DNA from: Chthonomonadales bacterium
GTDB lineage: Bacteria > Armatimonadota > Chthonomonadetes > Chthonomonadales > CAJBBX01
DNA length: 64,000 nucleotides
Reading direction: 5' to 3'
NCBI GenBank assembly: GCA_027459625.1
Contig: DAIDHP010000015.1
Location: forward strand, 1-64,000
The notes beneath the pieces are model-generated. The model saw only the letters and a program-made list of their open reading frames with translations, made no database searches and was not told where the DNA came from. The position numbers were made by a program, and so were the translations under genes. Positions 16,665-57,282 of this stretch are shown in pieces (within the stretch, counting starts at the first letter, position 1; each line of letters opens with the position of its first letter).

Positions 16665-16861
16665 TCCACTCGCCTTCCCAAGTCATTCAATGGAGGTAAT
16701 TCCAAAAATCAGCATATGAGGAGCGAAACGCAATACGGACGCTCATAGAAACGCCTAAATACGTAATCCACAATTATCCGACCGGCATCCAAATTCGGGT
16801 TTCATCCCCATGTTTTCAAGTATACCTGAACGATATGCCGGCTATGAGCAAACCGAAGTGA

Positions 16862-18579: not shown

Positions 18580-18916
18580 GGTTATTGCAAAGTTCCTCCG
18601 AACGCACATTTTTCTCAAAGCGTTGCGGAATGTGATGGCTTCGATTCAAGGAATTTGCTGTTTCAAGGGTTGATAACGCAGTATCCGTCCGGCAAGATAT
18701 AACCGCATGTGCTTCCAAAACAGGGCGTAACATACGCAATGTGTGTTTCGTATTACACATAAATGCGATAGTGTTGCGTCCTTTTATCTTGCGGGATACG
18801 TTCCGATATTGAGACCGGATATTGCATCCGTTAACGCGCATGATTATAAACCCATGATTTTAAGCTTGGTTCCCCTTTTTTCTTCGCTTCGTGGAATATA
18901 GGGATGAGGTGCGAAA
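18580..18916 (+). repeat. Intergenic stretch with degenerate copy of the 85-bp palindromic repeat
   Basis: The gap between rpmE and the DUF1385 gene holds a likely decayed member of the repeat family described at 53820, at about 18580-18660: the left arm GGTTATTGCAAAG is clear and the right arm GGAATTTGC is partial. The rest has no ORF. It includes GAGGT just before the TTG start of the next gene. Confidence 0.35.
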
Positions 18917-24918: not shown

Positions 24919-25157
24919 TGTGAAGCCCACTGGCTTGTTTCCACTCGCCGATGGGAAATGCGGTCGAATTCAACGATGCGACAAAAGACTGAATTTGTCT
25001 TCGAGGCGTTTCCGCCATCGTGAAGTTCTTATTGATTGAATGGTGCAATTACATGGGAAAAGGAACGTATACCATATGGGTGCGTGAATACCCGATGGCT
25101 TTTTCGCATAAACGTTTTATAGGATAACGTAATTGTTCCTGAAAGAAAGATTTAAGA

Positions 25158-27054: not shown

Positions 27055-27123
27055 AAATATTAAGGTACGGATCACTCAAGGTGACCGAAATCACGCATAA
27101 TCAGATGCTGTTTCATCAGCGAT

Positions 27124-27206
27124 GCAATTGCAAAAACCGGAACAATGGCTCATGTCGTCTATTTCACGCTATGTGAATCGCCGAAATTCGTATGCTGCAA
27201 TTACCT
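27124..27206. repeat. Copy of ~85-bp palindromic repeat in prs leader
   Basis: The right arm GCAATTACCT and left arm CAATTGCAAAAA bound an ~83-bp element. Its minus-strand interior (AGCGTGAAATAGACGACAT) aligns with the copy at 53821-53907 (AGCATGAAATGAACGATAT). It lies between the prs promoter and the terminator-like hairpin, so it is transcribed as part of the leader. Confidence 0.65.
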
Positions 27207-27233
27207 GTATCTTAAGCGATATCCGCTAAAGCG

Positions 27234-32023: not shown

Positions 32024-32107
32024 CGGCAAAGGCAAACAGCGTTCCGCAGTCATCATTTTTATGCAACGATGCAATCATACCCTTTCCTTCGCCTTTTGCA
32101 ATTGCCG
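32024..32107. repeat. Probable copy of the ~85-bp palindromic repeat
   Basis: An element of about 84 bp bounded by CGGCAAAGGCAAA and TTTTGCAATTGCCG. Arms and length match the family; the interior is more diverged. It ends 11 nt before the STAS gene and probably forms part of its leader. The rest of the 31827-32118 gap has no ORF I would support. Confidence 0.5.
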
Positions 32108-48092: not shown

Positions 48093-49481
48093 TTATTGCA
48101 TGCTCGGTTCGAACATCTCGTAACCGCTCTCGCCGTGTTGGCTTTGATCCAATCCAAGGGTCTCCTGTTCGTGTTCCACCCTCAACCCCATCGTGTGATT
48201 CAGGATGATGGCGATGAGCCAGGTGACAAGCATGGCATAACCGGCGGTTACCACAACGGCTACGAACTGAACCCATAATTGATACGGATTGCCCGCAATC
48301 AATCCTCTACCCATATAGGTGGCGAAGATTCCCGCCGCGATAGCCCCCCAGATGCCTCCCACGCCATGCACTCCGAAGACATCCAGCGTGTCGTCATAGC
48401 CGAACTTGTTCTTCAAGGTGACGGCGTAGAAGCAGATCAAGGAAACGACAATCCCGATGACAACCGCCGACATCGGGCTGACATACCCGGCTCCCGGAGT
48501 GATGCCCACCAATCCCGCCACGGCTCCCGTGGCGGCGCCAAGCACGGTGGGTTTGCCGTAGATTTTCCAATCGAGGAATATCCATGTGAGGGCGGCGATG
48601 GCTGCGGAGATATGCGTGGCGACGAACGCATTCACCGCTTGCGCATTGGCGGCTCCGGCGCTTCCCGCATTGAATCCGAACCACCCAAACCAAAGCATGG
48701 CGGTGCCGATCAGAGTCATGGTAAGGTTGTGAGGGCGCATCATCTCCCCCTCTTCCATGTGTCTCTTGCCCAGCATCCACGCTAGCACCAATGCGGAGGT
48801 TCCGCTGCTGATGTGGATAACCGCGCCTGCGAAATCCAACACCCCCATCTCTTTCAGAAATCCGCCCGCCCCCCAGACACAGTGCACCAGAGGGCAATAG
48901 ATAAAGGTGCTCCAAAGAACGAGAAATACGACATAGGTCTTGAATTTGATACGTTCCGCCACCGCCCCGCTGATAAGAGCCGGGGTGATGATGGCGAACA
49001 TCATCTGGTAAATCATGAAGGCTTCGTGAGGCACGGTGGGATTATAATTCGGGTTGGGGTTCAACCCGACTCCCCGCAAACCAAACCAACTCAAATTGCC
49101 GATCACATGATGGAAATCCGGACCGAACGCCAGACTGTAACCCCACATGATCCAAACGAAAGTAATGACCGCGAGAGCCACGAAGCTTTGCATGATGGTG
49201 CCGAGCACGTTTTTCGCCCGCACCATGCCGCCGTAAAAGAGAGCAAGCCCCGGTGTCATGAACATGACCAGCGCGGCGGCGGCGAGCATCCACGCCGTGT
49301 CACCGGCCTTGATGGGAAGCGCGTTCACGCCTTGCGCTTGGGCTGCGGTGGAGAGAGAGGCGAGGACAAGGGTTGTCCCCAGAAGTCGGAATTTGCCGAC
49401 TCGCCTGGAGCGACGCAATTCGGAGCCGATAACGGCTCGCGCGTCGCCAAGCAACGTGTAATGTGTGGTATTCAATTCCAT
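48093..49481 (-). CDS. amt: Ammonium transporter (first copy)
   Basis: Inner-membrane Amt/MEP/Rh channel of 462 residues. The N-terminal segment to about residue 50 looks like a cleavable signal (LASLSTAAQAQ), as in other Amt proteins. MTPGLALFYGGMVRAKN and the FGVHGVGGIWGAIAAG block with the pore His are conserved, as is the twin-His partner in YCPLVHCVWGAGG. The cytosolic tail GLDQSQHGESGYEMFE is the P-II-binding type, but no glnK gene is adjacent. GGGGG lies directly before the ATG. A conserved leader element lies about 95 nt upstream. Confidence 0.96.
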   Translation of the reverse strand: MELNTTHYTLLGDARAVIGSELRRSRRVGKFRLLGTTLVLASLSTAAQAQGVNALPIKAGDTAWMLAAAALVMFMTPGLALFYGGMVRAKNVLGTIMQSFVALAVITFVWIMWGYSLAFGPDFHHVIGNLSWFGLRGVGLNPNPNYNPTVPHEAFMIYQMMFAIITPALISGAVAERIKFKTYVVFLVLWSTFIYCPLVHCVWGAGGFLKEMGVLDFAGAVIHISSGTSALVLAWMLGKRHMEEGEMMRPHNLTMTLIGTAMLWFGWFGFNAGSAGAANAQAVNAFVATHISAAIAALTWIFLDWKIYGKPTVLGAATGAVAGLVGITPGAGYVSPMSAVVIGIVVSLICFYAVTLKNKFGYDDTLDVFGVHGVGGIWGAIAAGIFATYMGRGLIAGNPYQLWVQFVAVVVTAGYAMLVTWLIAIILNHTMGLRVEHEQETLGLDQSQHGESGYEMFEPSMQ

Positions 49482-49926: not shown

Positions 49927-51357
49927 TCAATCCAAGCCGGATTCGAACATCTCGTATCCGCTCTCCCCGTGCTGGCTCTGATCCAAGCCCAGGGTCTCTT
50001 CCTCCGCGTCAACGCGCAATCCAATCGTCTTATTCACAATCGTGCCTAAAATGAAGGTCATCACGACCGCATAGCAAACGGAGACCAATACGCTGAACAC
50101 CTGAACGAGGAACTGATGGAAGTCTCCGTAAAGCAAACCCTGATGGTAGAAGCCGCTGGATTTCGGGTCTCCGTCGGACGCGATGAGATGCACCGCAAAG
50201 ATGCCCGTTGCGATAGCCCCCCACATCCCTCCCACGCCATGCACTCCAAAGACATCCAAGGTGTCATCATAACCGAATCTGTTTTTCAAGCCCACCGCCC
50301 AGAAACTGATGCAGGACACGCCCGCTCCGATCGCCAAAGCCCCGAGAGGATCCACGAAGCCTGACGCGGGGGTGATAGCGACCAATCCCGCAACGGCTCC
50401 GGTCGCGGCTCCCAACGCAGTCGGCTTTCCGTAAGCTTTCCAATCCAACAGCACCCAAACCAATGCCGCCGTGGCTGCGGCGATATGGGTGACCACAAAA
50501 GCGTTCACCGCATGCTCGTTCGCAGCGATGGCGCTGCCCGCGTTAAAGCCGAACCAACCGAACCATAGCAGTCCCGCGCCAATAAGAGTCATGGTTAGAT
50601 TGTGCGGGCGCATCAGTTCACGCTCGTCCGTGCGGCGCTTGCCAATCATTATCGCCAGAACCAACGCCGAAACTCCGCTGGATATATGCACCACGGTGCC
50701 TCCGGCGAAATCCAGCGCCCCCATGTTTTTCAGCCATCCGCCCGCTCCCCACACCCAGTGAGCAAGAGGGCAATAAACGAACGTGCTCCACAAAACGAGG
50801 AAAACCACATACGCCTTGAATTTAATCCGCTCTGCGATGGCGCCGCTGAAGAGAGCAGGCGTGATGATGGCGAACATCATCTGGAAGATCATGTACGCCT
50901 CATGGGGCACCGTGGGACCATAATTGGGATCGGGAGTGACGCCCACCCCATGTAATCCAATCCAGTTCAATCCTCCGATAATATGCCAATGATCCGGGCC
51001 AAAAGCAAGGGAGTATCCCCATAAAACCCACAACACCGAGATTATCGCCATGGCGATAAAACTTTGCATGATGGTGCTGAGCACGTTTTTGGCGCGGACC
51101 ATGCCCCCGTAAAAGAGAGCCAATCCCGGAGTCATCAATAACACCAACGCGGTTGACGCAAGCAGCCATGCGGTATCGCCGGTGTTAATGGAAGAGGTGA
51201 CGCCTTGAGCGAAGGCGCAAGAAGGAACTGCAAGCAGGACAATGATTGTCCCGATAAGTCGAAATGCACTGACCTTTCCGCTTCGCGCGCTCAAGCCGTC
51301 AACGGCTTCCGCGAGAGCGGAATTCACACACATCGTTTTCAAATATCCATCCCCCAT
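49927..51357 (-). CDS. amt: Ammonium transporter (second copy)
   Basis: Paralogue of the neighbouring Amt with the same block order: LLMTPGLALFYGGMVRAKN, YCPLAHWVWGAGGWL and FGVHGVGGMWGAIATG. The same P-II-type tail, GLDQSQHGESGYEMFE, is present. It differs by a longer periplasmic loop (HLIASDGDPKSSGFYHQG). The ATG at 51357 (MGDGYLK) or 51333 (MCVNSAL) is the probable start. The ORF reaches to 51504, but that would place the start upstream of the promoter and across the conserved leader. Tandem duplication is evident. Confidence 0.93.
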   Translation of the reverse strand: MGDGYLKTMCVNSALAEAVDGLSARSGKVSAFRLIGTIIVLLAVPSCAFAQGVTSSINTGDTAWLLASTALVLLMTPGLALFYGGMVRAKNVLSTIMQSFIAMAIISVLWVLWGYSLAFGPDHWHIIGGLNWIGLHGVGVTPDPNYGPTVPHEAYMIFQMMFAIITPALFSGAIAERIKFKAYVVFLVLWSTFVYCPLAHWVWGAGGWLKNMGALDFAGGTVVHISSGVSALVLAIMIGKRRTDERELMRPHNLTMTLIGAGLLWFGWFGFNAGSAIAANEHAVNAFVVTHIAAATAALVWVLLDWKAYGKPTALGAATGAVAGLVAITPASGFVDPLGALAIGAGVSCISFWAVGLKNRFGYDDTLDVFGVHGVGGMWGAIATGIFAVHLIASDGDPKSSGFYHQGLLYGDFHQFLVQVFSVLVSVCYAVVMTFILGTIVNKTIGLRVDAEEETLGLDQSQHGESGYEMFESGLD

Positions 51358-51368
51358 TGATAGTATGT

Positions 51369-51421
51369 CGCCTGTCACTCCGCTTTGAGAGGTGTACCGC
51401 GGTGAACACTGGGGACGGGCT
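51369..51421 (-). promoter_or_regulatory. Conserved leader element upstream of second amt (candidate cis-RNA)
   Basis: The 53-nt counterpart of the element at 49578-49632. It lies inside the predicted transcript, about 55 nt after the predicted start site, and its closing strand GACAGGC ends some 10 nt before the start codon at 51357. It could therefore gate ribosome access. It lacks the GGAAGTAGG core of known glutamine riboswitches. Confidence 0.6.
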
Positions 51422-51481
51422 ATGTCCAAAAAACCTGCATTGACGCAGTGAAATTGAACAACAATGTCAAAATCTTCCTCC

Positions 51482-51511
51482 ATTATAGACAATAAAAAAA
51501 GCATCCGTCAA
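51482..51511 (-). promoter_or_regulatory. Promoter of second amt
   Basis: Minus-strand TTGACG (51506-51511), 18-nt spacer, TATAAT (51482-51487). The expected start site is near 51475, leaving a leader of about 115 nt. Confidence 0.7.
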
Positions 51512-53814: not shown

Positions 53815-53912
53815 CCGTACAGGTAATTGCAAAATTCGCTTTTCAGGTATTTCGCCGAGCATGAAATGAACGATATTAGCCTCATTTTCTGAATTTTGCA
53901 ATTACCTCCGTA
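53815..53912. repeat. Best copy of the ~85-bp palindromic repeat with possible target duplication
   Basis: AGGTAATTGCAAAATTC (53821-53837) and its perfect complement (53891-53907) are 17-bp arms around a 53-nt interior. The pentamer CCGTA stands on both sides (53815-53819 and 53908-53912), as a target-site duplication would. Related copies are at 57197, 27124, 32024 and perhaps 18580. It resembles a small non-autonomous palindromic element; no transposase lies within. Confidence 0.7.
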
Positions 53913-54231
53913 TAATTAACAGTTGTTTCGTTTATACAGTTTATTTAAAATGAGTTATTAATTACTTAATACGGCTTGACGCTTGTTTATTACACATTTA
54001 ATATCGTATAACACGACTATTTCGAAATTAAGATCAAAACATTCCACCATATAGCATGCCTACATATCAAATTTGATTAGAATAGTGAGCTTTCTTGGTA
54101 CATGTTGATGTCATCCCTCGGTTGAAATAAGTTGGTAGCAATGATATCGTGTCAACGCAAACCCATAAAAAAAAAAAGGAATCCACCTTATATTGGCAGG
54201 CAGGGAAAAATAACAAGCAACCATCATTGGA

Positions 54232-55479
54232 TTACTTTATAGCATAAAGATAGTTATCCCAATTCCCCACATATATTGTGCCATTCTTCCCGATAGCTGG
54301 AGATCCAAAGGCATAATTGCGAGATGGTATTTTATTTGTAATTTTTATTTTATATTTCCATATGAGCTTGCCATTTAAACCATTCAACGCACATAATACT
54401 CCATTATTTCCTCCTACATAAATTGCTCCATCGGAGGAAATAACGGGTGAAGTGAAAACTTTATCACCAGTTTCATATTTCCATAACATTTTCCCAGATT
54501 TTGCATATATAGCATATATGTAATGATCTGTGCTTCCGAAATAAATGATACCTTTTGGTGATATTGCAGGTGATGAGAATATTTTGTCATAGGTTTTGAA
54601 TTTCCATAGTAACTTTCCGTCATTTCCATTCACGGCATATAGATAATGATCCATGCTTCCTATGTAGATAATTCCATCCGAACTTATAGCAGGGGATGAT
54701 TCCGCTGTTCCGCCAAATCTAAACTTCCATTTTACCTTACCAGTCATTCCATCAAGCGCGAAAAGATAATCCGTATCATTTCCCACATAGACAGTTTCAT
54801 CGCTTCCTATGGCTGGACAAGAAAAAATATCGCCGATAGAATTGAAGATCCACATTAATTGATCGGAGATTCCATTTATCGCAATGAATTCACCTGATAT
54901 TCCGCTGCATCCTATGTATATGGTTCCGTCTTTTCCTATTAAAGGTGAAGACATCCATAGCTCATTATCATTAGTTTTGTATTTCCAATATGCATGTCCA
55001 TTATCGCCATTCAGTGCATATAAAGTGCAATTTTTCCCACCAACGTAGATTGTACCATCCACTCCAATGGCTGGAGATGATATATTTGTAGTATATCCTA
55101 TATTACATTTCCATTCCAAATTGCCATTTGAATTATTTAGTGCATAAATATAACCGTCCTTGCTGGTGAAATATATGGTTCCATTCGCACCAATAACGGG
55201 CGATGATAGTATATGTCCCTGTGTCTTGAATTTCCATTTTATTTTTCCTATAGCTTCCTTCCCAGCACCTAGACCAGAATTCCTTATATCCGCCTGGTAT
55301 TTTGGCCAAGGGGATTTCGCAAGACCTATAACGAATTTCATTTTATTATTATTGATTATCATATGATTGTGAATTAATCCGCAGCCAGGCGATAAAAGAA
55401 TTAACGCACATATTAAAATATTTATCAAAATTTTAATTATATATTTATGATGATAATTTCTAATTTGTATAATATTCAA
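54232..55479 (-). CDS. Secreted PQQ-type beta-propeller repeat protein
   Basis: A 415-residue protein: hydrophobic N-terminus with a weak lipobox (LSPGC at 29-33), then about eight repeats of the form SSPAIG-x-DGTIYVGS-x2-LYALNG-x2-GKLIWKYK, the PQQ/BamB-like WD-type blades. The start is TTG with GAAAGGAG upstream. The gene is visibly AT-rich with many Lys, Asn and Ile codons unlike its neighbours, so lateral acquisition is likely. The function is probably a binding scaffold. A poly-T tract near 54168-54178 follows the gene. Confidence 0.85.
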   Translation of the reverse strand: MNIIQIRNYHHKYIIKILINILICALILLSPGCGLIHNHMIINNNKMKFVIGLAKSPWPKYQADIRNSGLGAGKEAIGKIKWKFKTQGHILSSPVIGANGTIYFTSKDGYIYALNNSNGNLEWKCNIGYTTNISSPAIGVDGTIYVGGKNCTLYALNGDNGHAYWKYKTNDNELWMSSPLIGKDGTIYIGCSGISGEFIAINGISDQLMWIFNSIGDIFSCPAIGSDETVYVGNDTDYLFALDGMTGKVKWKFRFGGTAESSPAISSDGIIYIGSMDHYLYAVNGNDGKLLWKFKTYDKIFSSPAISPKGIIYFGSTDHYIYAIYAKSGKMLWKYETGDKVFTSPVISSDGAIYVGGNNGVLCALNGLNGKLIWKYKIKITNKIPSRNYAFGSPAIGKNGTIYVGNWDNYLYAIK

Positions 55480-55634
55480 TAGTTTTCATCTCCTTTCATT
55501 AGCTGTCCTCATATCAAAATATGGGGGGAGCTAATATATTAGGTTCTTCGCTGTTTCCTGTGGGTGATGAATGGATGAGTAAGCGGCCACATGGAATAAG
55601 ACGGCGTTTATTATGGTTCCGCTCCGTATTCCCA
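55480..55634. other. AT-rich flank of the propeller gene
   Basis: Contains the Shine-Dalgarno region of the propeller gene on the minus strand and no other gene. Composition shifts back to the genome average by about 55600. Confidence 0.4.
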
Positions 55635-55700
55635 TCGGGATGAATCCCGAGGTCCGAGGTCAAAATGGCTTGAAAGCCATCCGCCAACCCCAAAGGGGTT
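55635..55700. repeat. Three tandem short-loop hairpins
   Basis: TCGGGAT-GA-ATCCCGA (55635-55650), ATGGCTT-GA-AAGCCAT (55665-55680) and AACCCC-AAA-GGGGTT (55686-55700) follow each other with 5-14 nt gaps. They have tight 2-3 nt loops and perfect stems. Such blocks occur as intergenic repeats near mobile elements. Downstream to 56036 no gene is supported. Confidence 0.45.
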
Positions 55701-56036
55701 GAATATTAACTGCTTGGTTCGCCCGCAACACATCCTCCTTCGGGCTTTGCAAGAGTATCGGCACCCCCCATTGGACATCTTTTTCGGGATGGAATGTGTT
55801 TAATGCGGAGATACCCGCCAGTCGTATCAATTACTTTCTTCAATGGTTCTATCCAATTATGCGCGCTCGAATCGAGCCTATCGGCCAAATTCATTCTCAT
55901 GTGATACGACTTGTTTGTGATTCATAGTGTTAGTCTTCCTGTCTTGAAGTGTAATTTTGACATGAAGATTGTCTCACTTTATATTGACACATAGGGCTAT
56001 CCGAAAAAATATTTTTGAAATTTCATCTAAAACCTC

Positions 56037-56065
56037 TTGACAACCTGAACGGGCGGTGATATGAT
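56037..56065 (+). promoter_or_regulatory. Strong promoter upstream of RHS remnant
   Basis: TTGACA (56037-56042), exactly 17 nt, TATGAT (56060-56065). The start site should be near 56072, about 50 nt before the RHS start codon. Confidence 0.75.
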
Positions 56066-56120
56066 AGTTTTGTGCAAGGGAAAGTTTTGTTTGAGGCTCG
56101 ATTCGAGAAGGAGATTCCGG

Positions 56121-57129
56121 ATGACGCATTCGACAAGTATTCTCTTCAGGCAACGCCCAAGGCTCGCCGCCGCTCTCGTACTTATTTTACCCCCCCCATT
56201 GTGTTATTTTTCACAATCATGGGATGCCTCGCATCGCCCGTTCCAATAAATAATATGGGTTACCTCTCGTTGCTGGACGAAGTGGGCAGGCTGAGATGCC
56301 ATGTGTCACAATGCACGGTGAATAGTGGAGAAGCGAGCTTCATGTGAACACTCTCACCCCGCAAAAGGCGCGAGTTTTGCATCTCGAACTAGGCGAATAC
56401 GCTCTGGCTCACGACATGCACCCCGCTCTCGCCGGAGCAACCTCCTACTCCTACGACACTCGCAACGAACTTCTCAATGAAACCTCCGTGCGAAACGGCG
56501 GCTATTCGAGCGCATTCGGGTACGACGGCGCGGAGAACCCGACCACCTTCAAGGGGAGTCCGAACTCCTTCAACGCGGACAACCAGAACGCCGCTTTCGC
56601 ATTTGACGGAAACGGAAATCCGACAACCTACAAAGGGGATGCACTCGGATTCGACCCCGAGAACCGCCTGACCTCCTACGGAACCGTCATGACTGCAGGA
56701 TACGACGGGGACGGACTGCGGGCGTGGAAAAGCACCGCAGCGGGGAAGACTTATTTCGTGTACGATGGCGATGCTCCCGTGCTTGAGATGGATTCGAGCG
56801 GGAACGTGACGGCGTTTAATGTTTGGGGTGCGAACGGTCTGCTCTCCAGAAGGATGGGGACCGCCAGCGCCTACTACACCTTCGACCCGCAGGGGAGCGT
56901 GGTTCAGAGGCTGGATATCAATCAGAACATCCTTTCCACATCCGCCTACGACGCCTGGGGGAATCCGCTTGTGGCCAATCCAAACGACCCCTTCGGATAC
57001 GAGGCTCAGTGGGGGTATTATACGGACAACAAGACCGGTCTCCTCCTCCTCACCCACCGCTACTACGACCCGACTCAGGGAAGGTTTTTGACGAGGGACC
57101 CCGTAGGGTATGAGGGCGCATCAAATTAA
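56121..57129 (+). pseudogene. RHS/YD-repeat protein remnant, internally deleted
   Basis: An ATG at 56121 behind AAGGAG begins MTHSTSILFRQRPRLAAALV, a plausible signal peptide, but the frame closes after 42 codons. From about 56430, in a different frame, the RHS core resumes: YSYDTRNELLNETSV, FGYDGAENPTTFKG, then the tail RYYDPTQGRFLTRDPVGYEG. It stops at GASN just where the variable C-terminal toxin or tip normally begins. So the N-terminal bulk has been deleted with a frame change and the tail is missing. An intact RHS gene is several kb. No immunity gene is seen. Confidence 0.78.
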
Positions 57130-57196
57130 CTTTCTCGCTTTTCACATGGGCTAATCGAAATTAAACTTGTCCGATATAGAGTCAATGAATTGTTTT

Positions 57197-57282
57197 GAGG
57201 GTATTGCAAATGGCTTTTGAGGCCTGTCTTCAAAGATCGAATGACTGTTATTCCTCATCTTCCGTATTTTGCAAATACCCTC
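57197..57282. repeat. Copy of the ~85-bp palindromic repeat beside RHS remnant
   Basis: GAGGGTATTGCAAA (57197-57210) and TTTGCAAATACCCTC (57268-57282) are inverted arms with one indel. The interior shares GCTTTT, GAATGA and CCTCAT with the copy at 53821. It lies 67 bp past the broken end of the RHS gene. Confidence 0.65.

Follow-up and report, generated by a model that had tools for sequence, protein, structure and literature searches.

An 89-bp repeat family in a Chthonomonadales bacterium is most likely a MITE family mobilised by an IS1182-type transposase

Copies of the repeat in the analysed window

The window, a 64,000-nucleotide stretch of a Chthonomonadales contig, carries at 53820-53908 an 89-bp palindromic element of the form C-AGGTAATTGCAAAATTC...GAATTTTGCAATTACCT-C, with CGTA on each flank. 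We scored the window with a profile of the family built without this copy, using 60 Markov-resampled windows as the background control (best score, 11.8 bits). Four window sites in this profile search score above all 60 resampled windows. These sites, with the parts of the best copy, are as follows.

53820-53908, plus strand: young, near-consensus copy of the 89-bp putative MITE (profile 92.6 bits, E 1e-27)
53816-53819, no strand: left target duplication, CGTA (same 4 bp on both sides; a 4-bp duplication is found family-wide)
53909-53912, no strand: right target duplication, CGTA (same basis as the left)
53821-53837, plus strand: left terminal inverted repeat, AGGTAATTGCAAAATTC
53891-53907, minus strand: right terminal inverted repeat, AGGTAATTGCAAAATTC
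27121-27207, minus strand: old, decayed family copy whose target duplication is gone (profile 37.7 bits, E 1.4e-10)
57197-57282, plus strand: diverged copy with ends GAGGGTATTGCAAA...TTTTGCAAATACCCTC and without a target duplication (profile 22.2 bits over 57197-57281)
16693-16780, minus strand: old, decayed copy absent from the original prediction (profile 16.3 bits, E 6.5e-4)

The original prediction, made from the window alone, had described a dispersed family of about 85 bp. Its best copy, placed at 53821-53907, is real once the boundaries are corrected by a base at each end, and its copies at 27124-27206 and 57197-57282 are likewise recovered, the first with adjusted limits. The three other proposed sites do not rise above the resampled windows: 32024-32107 scores 3.3 bits and matches at a single end, the supposed degenerate copy at 18580-18660 reaches at most 7.3 bits and the supposed half copy at 25010-25065 has 7.0 bits. 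The CCGTA noted on both sides of the best copy was correctly taken for a target duplication, although its size is 4 bp: it consists of CGTA plus the final C of the element.

Because both of its arms are altered to GGGTATT(T)GCAAA, its own genome contains no other close copy and its score comes partly from the terminal repeats, we class the 57197-57282 site as a diverged relative. The terminal repeats supply much of that score, which makes this the least certain of the four assignments; the reverse strand of the palindromic 53820-53908 copy alone scores 21.7 bits. The 57197 copy and a copy beside the orthologous GH35 gene in the sister species are probably independent insertions, since a separate TATT duplication flanks the latter and the DNA between the genes aligns poorly. 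Just upstream of the 57197 copy ends an open frame (56344-57129) with RHS/YD-repeat features in its translation and no Pfam family at E ≤ 0.001. Elsewhere in the window, the neighbouring genes at 48093-49481 and 49927-51504 are paralogous, with DNA 72-78% identical over several stretches.

Copy number, target duplications and placement

A BLAST search of the window's own genome (G000; 4.55 Mb in 114 contigs) with the 53820-53908 copy gave at least 40 near-full-length matches including the query itself, together with terminal-repeat matches. Among the 40 near-full-length matches listed, 27 are 93-100% identical to the query and 13 are 80-86% identical. The family profile (R1) finds at least 150 matches each in this genome and in that of the sister species (G001). 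Of 19 other relatives searched, 18 have no match and one, G017, a genome from another family of the same order, has a single marginal match (E 0.005). The genome-wide search put forward with the original prediction returns many further copies with shared boundaries. Matches to AGGTAATTGCAAAATTC with up to 3 mismatches number 338 in the window's genome (8 for the reversed control), 352 in the sister species (9) and 107 in G017 (0), and are near background in the remaining relatives.

The family ends are inverted [C/G]AGGTAATTGCAAAATTC, with perfect arms of 17 bp. Nearly all copies are 86-90 bp long, short and without coding capacity, and they are dispersed through the genome in the numbers given above. 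An exact 4-bp match lies directly outside the terminal base in 29 of 41 copies with aligned flanks, against 1.3 expected from crossed flanks, and a larger set gives exact 4-bp duplications in 37 of 75 copies (1.1 expected). The duplications that the original prediction proposed to look for are thus present, at 4 bp rather than 5 bp. When copies are grouped by rising numbers of terminal-repeat mismatches, exact duplications occur in 23/33, 14/31 and 0/11, as expected if duplications erode with age. Counts of the bases in the flanks suggest that the target is weakly palindromic, A/C-NNNN-G/T.

Among 35 copies placed by rough ORF calls, nearly all are intergenic, with 23 between tandem, 9 between divergent and 1 between convergent genes. 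This loosely agrees with the proposed settling in 5′ leaders. The placement may reflect insertion into AT-rich upstream regions.

Seven of the 26 copies in the young set equal the consensus, the mean distance to it is 1.6% and variants are mostly singletons; from these sequences the young copies look like a recent burst. Older subfamilies retain the 86-90 bp length and the ends, and their interiors have diverged. A literature search for MITEs with Armatimonadetes found none, and the single match from a distant BLAST search against plasmids was due to chance.

A decayed candidate partner with a transposase gene

The search for a transposase with matching terminal repeats, also suggested in the original prediction, led to an element at G000:C7:66966-68391 and a second copy on contig C27 of the same genome, both decayed. 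The C7 element starts GAGGTAATTGCAAAATAAAAATG and finishes CGGAATTTTGCAATTACCTC, and its ends GAGGTAATTGCAAAAT...ATTTTGCAATTACCTC enclose a DUF772/DDE_Tnp_1 transposase with internal stops. The ends of the 89-bp family match this partner over 16 bp at both partner ends, and the resemblance is limited to the terminal ~16-18 bp. The best partner copy lies in the sister species (G001:C211) and has one in-frame stop in a 364-residue frame. We found no intact transposase of the partner group in either the own or the sister assembly, where all copies are broken or partial, and no clear 4-bp duplication at the partner copies seen. A pair of terminal repeats 1.1 kb apart in the sister species (G001:C163), considered as an autonomous element, proved to be two MITEs around an ordinary gene.

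DUF772 scores above its cut-off in the partner, and DDE_Tnp_1 and the NCBIfam IS1182 model score below theirs, in broken pieces. The nearest annotated proteins, 40-46% identical to the partner, are transposases of the IS1182 family encoded on plasmids of proteobacteria, and comparison with the annotated IS1182 relatives shows invariant D147, D270 and E319; the transposase of G017 is 53% identical to that of the partner. The type of the partner transposase and the ends and duplication size of the 89-bp family agree with IS1182-family relatives. Among the annotated relatives at 40-46% identity, the ends read GAGGCTCTTGCAGAAC or GAGCCTCTTGCAAAA and the duplications are 4 bp long; individual annotated elements combine GAGGCTCTTGCAGAAC with TGGT, GAGCCTCTTGCAAAAG with ATGA and GAGGCACTTGCAAAAC with TTAG. 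Within-genome comparison independently fixes the ends as GAGCCTTTTGCAAAAG and GAGCCTCTTGCAGAATT in Lentisphaera marina (15 loci) and Entotheonella (7 loci), and the duplications of these copies are mostly 4 bp. Ghiorsea elements have GAGGTAATTGCAAAAC at both ends; GAGGTAATTGCAAAACTC, likewise at both of their ends, equals the MITE consensus over 15 bases. Our survey of relatives recovered both ends at 40 loci, and 19 of these show an exact 4-bp duplication. The 4-bp duplication is thus shared with full-length IS1182 elements of other phyla, whose ends are homologous to those of the MITE and in some cases identical. ISPse1, another IS1182 element, also generates a 4-bp duplication (PMC3281130).

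In Entotheonella (OX639990.1), the flanks of two IS1182 copies are swapped in reverse-complement orientation, as if recombination between the copies had caused an inversion. G017 contains several MITE types with common GAGGTAATTGCAAAA ends and differing interiors, some of them long inverted repeats such as CCCCCTCTCCCAAAAACAGGAGAGGGGG; the interiors of its many elements with the same terminal repeat measure roughly 110-570 bp.

A MITE family and the alternatives

Because of their fixed length, inverted ends, target duplications and burst-like identity, and the transposase-bearing element with matching ends, we conclude, with a probability of roughly 0.94, that the 89-bp repeats are a MITE family most likely mobilised by the transposase of an IS1182-type element with shared ends. 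The MITE-like, non-autonomous character given in the original prediction is thereby upheld. Direct observations are the dispersal of copies that share boundaries, their 4-bp duplication, the decayed same-end transposase element in the same genome, and the occurrence of these ends and this duplication size in IS1182 relatives. An IS1182-group transposase would move the non-autonomous 89-bp copies in trans, attaching the element ends at points 4 bp apart on the two strands of the target, which would give each insertion a 4-bp duplication; the active transposase copy may now be lost or unassembled.

The family is new and the kind of mobile DNA, a textbook MITE, is well known. The ISMac2-derived MITEs of Methanosarcina acetivorans are likewise non-autonomous with an IS1182-type partner, and a 4-bp direct repeat is reported for their 160-bp type (PMC3852290); they are 160-169 bp long and present in 7-14 copies in an archaeal host, whereas the bacterial family described here is 89 bp long and numbers at least 150 copies. 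In Pseudomonas syringae pv. actinidiae, MITEPsy3 is likewise a lineage-specific burst, of about 100 bp and ~78 copies, but it is attributed to a different partner, ISPsy25, and its sequence is different (PMC6053426). ISUnCu17-like and other IS1182 insertion sequences in plasmid records have homologous GAG-N5/6-TTGCAAAA ends and the 4-bp duplication; they are full-length and autonomous, whereas here the coding part is absent.

It is unlikely that the family has outlived its own transposase, with an IS1182 enzyme that is unseen or foreign keeping it mobile and some upstream copies co-opted for gene regulation, for instance by way of the TTGCAA that faces outward close to each end. An outward promoter of hybrid type (TTGCAA and TATAAT spaced by 16-18 bp) occurs at 4.7% of ends against 2.4% of control positions, an excess that at only 7 cases is unconvincing.

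A hairpin selected by the host as a terminator, leader RNA or protein-binding site, whatever its origin, would account for the position of most copies upstream of a gene and for the strong folding of young copies (z −5.0 and −4.2 against shuffles on the two strands). However, the folding of both old window copies, at 27121 and 16693, barely exceeds that of shuffled sequences (z −1.3 and −0.6), RNAalifold gave no consensus structure for 30 diverged copies and Rfam assigned no family to the element. Compensatory change across 17 terminal stem pairs did not exceed that in shuffles, and thus nothing points to selection on the hairpin after insertion. We regard such selection as very improbable; on the simplest reading of the sequences, the inverted arms would be transposase-binding ends rather than selected RNA. 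An Rfam match to mir-548 (E 0.98; 21.7 bits, where the cut-off is 90) is attributable to chance.

We hold it to be just as improbable that the MITEs belong to another DDE family, such as IS5, with an incidental IS1182-type match. IS5-group elements can make 4-bp duplications, and the NCBIfam IS5 model also has a match, below its cut-off (E 3.4e-10), in the N-terminal part of the partner, but the 16-bp end match to the IS1182-type partner holds at both partner ends and IS1182 is the annotation given to the relatives with homologous ends.

REP/BIME-type extragenic palindromes spread by a Y1 (RAYT) transposase, the other option in the original prediction, are, like ERIC-type ones, similarly short, palindromic, intergenic and numerous, but the Y1 enzymes that spread REPs are not known to leave a target duplication, and because the 89-bp family has 4-bp duplications, besides a DDE-type element with matching ends in its own genome and no sequence relation that we could find to REP/ERIC repeats, we give this origin next to no credence.

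The IS1182-type MITE reading explains palindromes of an uncultured bacterial lineage that could otherwise be mistaken for regulatory RNAs or terminators. It also provides a signature, GAG-N5/6-TTGCAAAA ends with a 4-bp duplication, for spotting IS1182-type MITEs across phyla. The fixed 89-bp unit, with its graded decay and partial sharing between two sister species, is usable for dating transposition waves.

Two old copies, on G000:C4 at about 28.9 and 33.1 kb, are also present at the corresponding positions in the sister species, and their drift is about equal to that of the flanking DNA; after insertion, copies would appear to decay as neutral DNA. The patchy distribution among relatives fits horizontal arrival of an autonomous element, from which MITEs may then have been generated locally. 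The empty-site comparison with the sister species gave no clean filled-versus-empty pair for a young copy; it turned up old copies present in both species, as well as inserted palindromic elements of other kinds. One of these elements, a 123-bp insertion in G001:C182, has palindromic ends GAGTGTGTTGCATAAA...TTTGTGCAACACACTC and is flanked by a TAAT duplication; its empty site is in G000:C4 near 32.3 kb, and it probably represents a second MITE family with IS1182-like ends. A 90-bp palindromic insertion in the same contig, with TTAATTCGGCAATTAAATA ends, apparent TA flanks and an empty site in G000:C4 near 36.2 kb, is possibly an IS630-type MITE.
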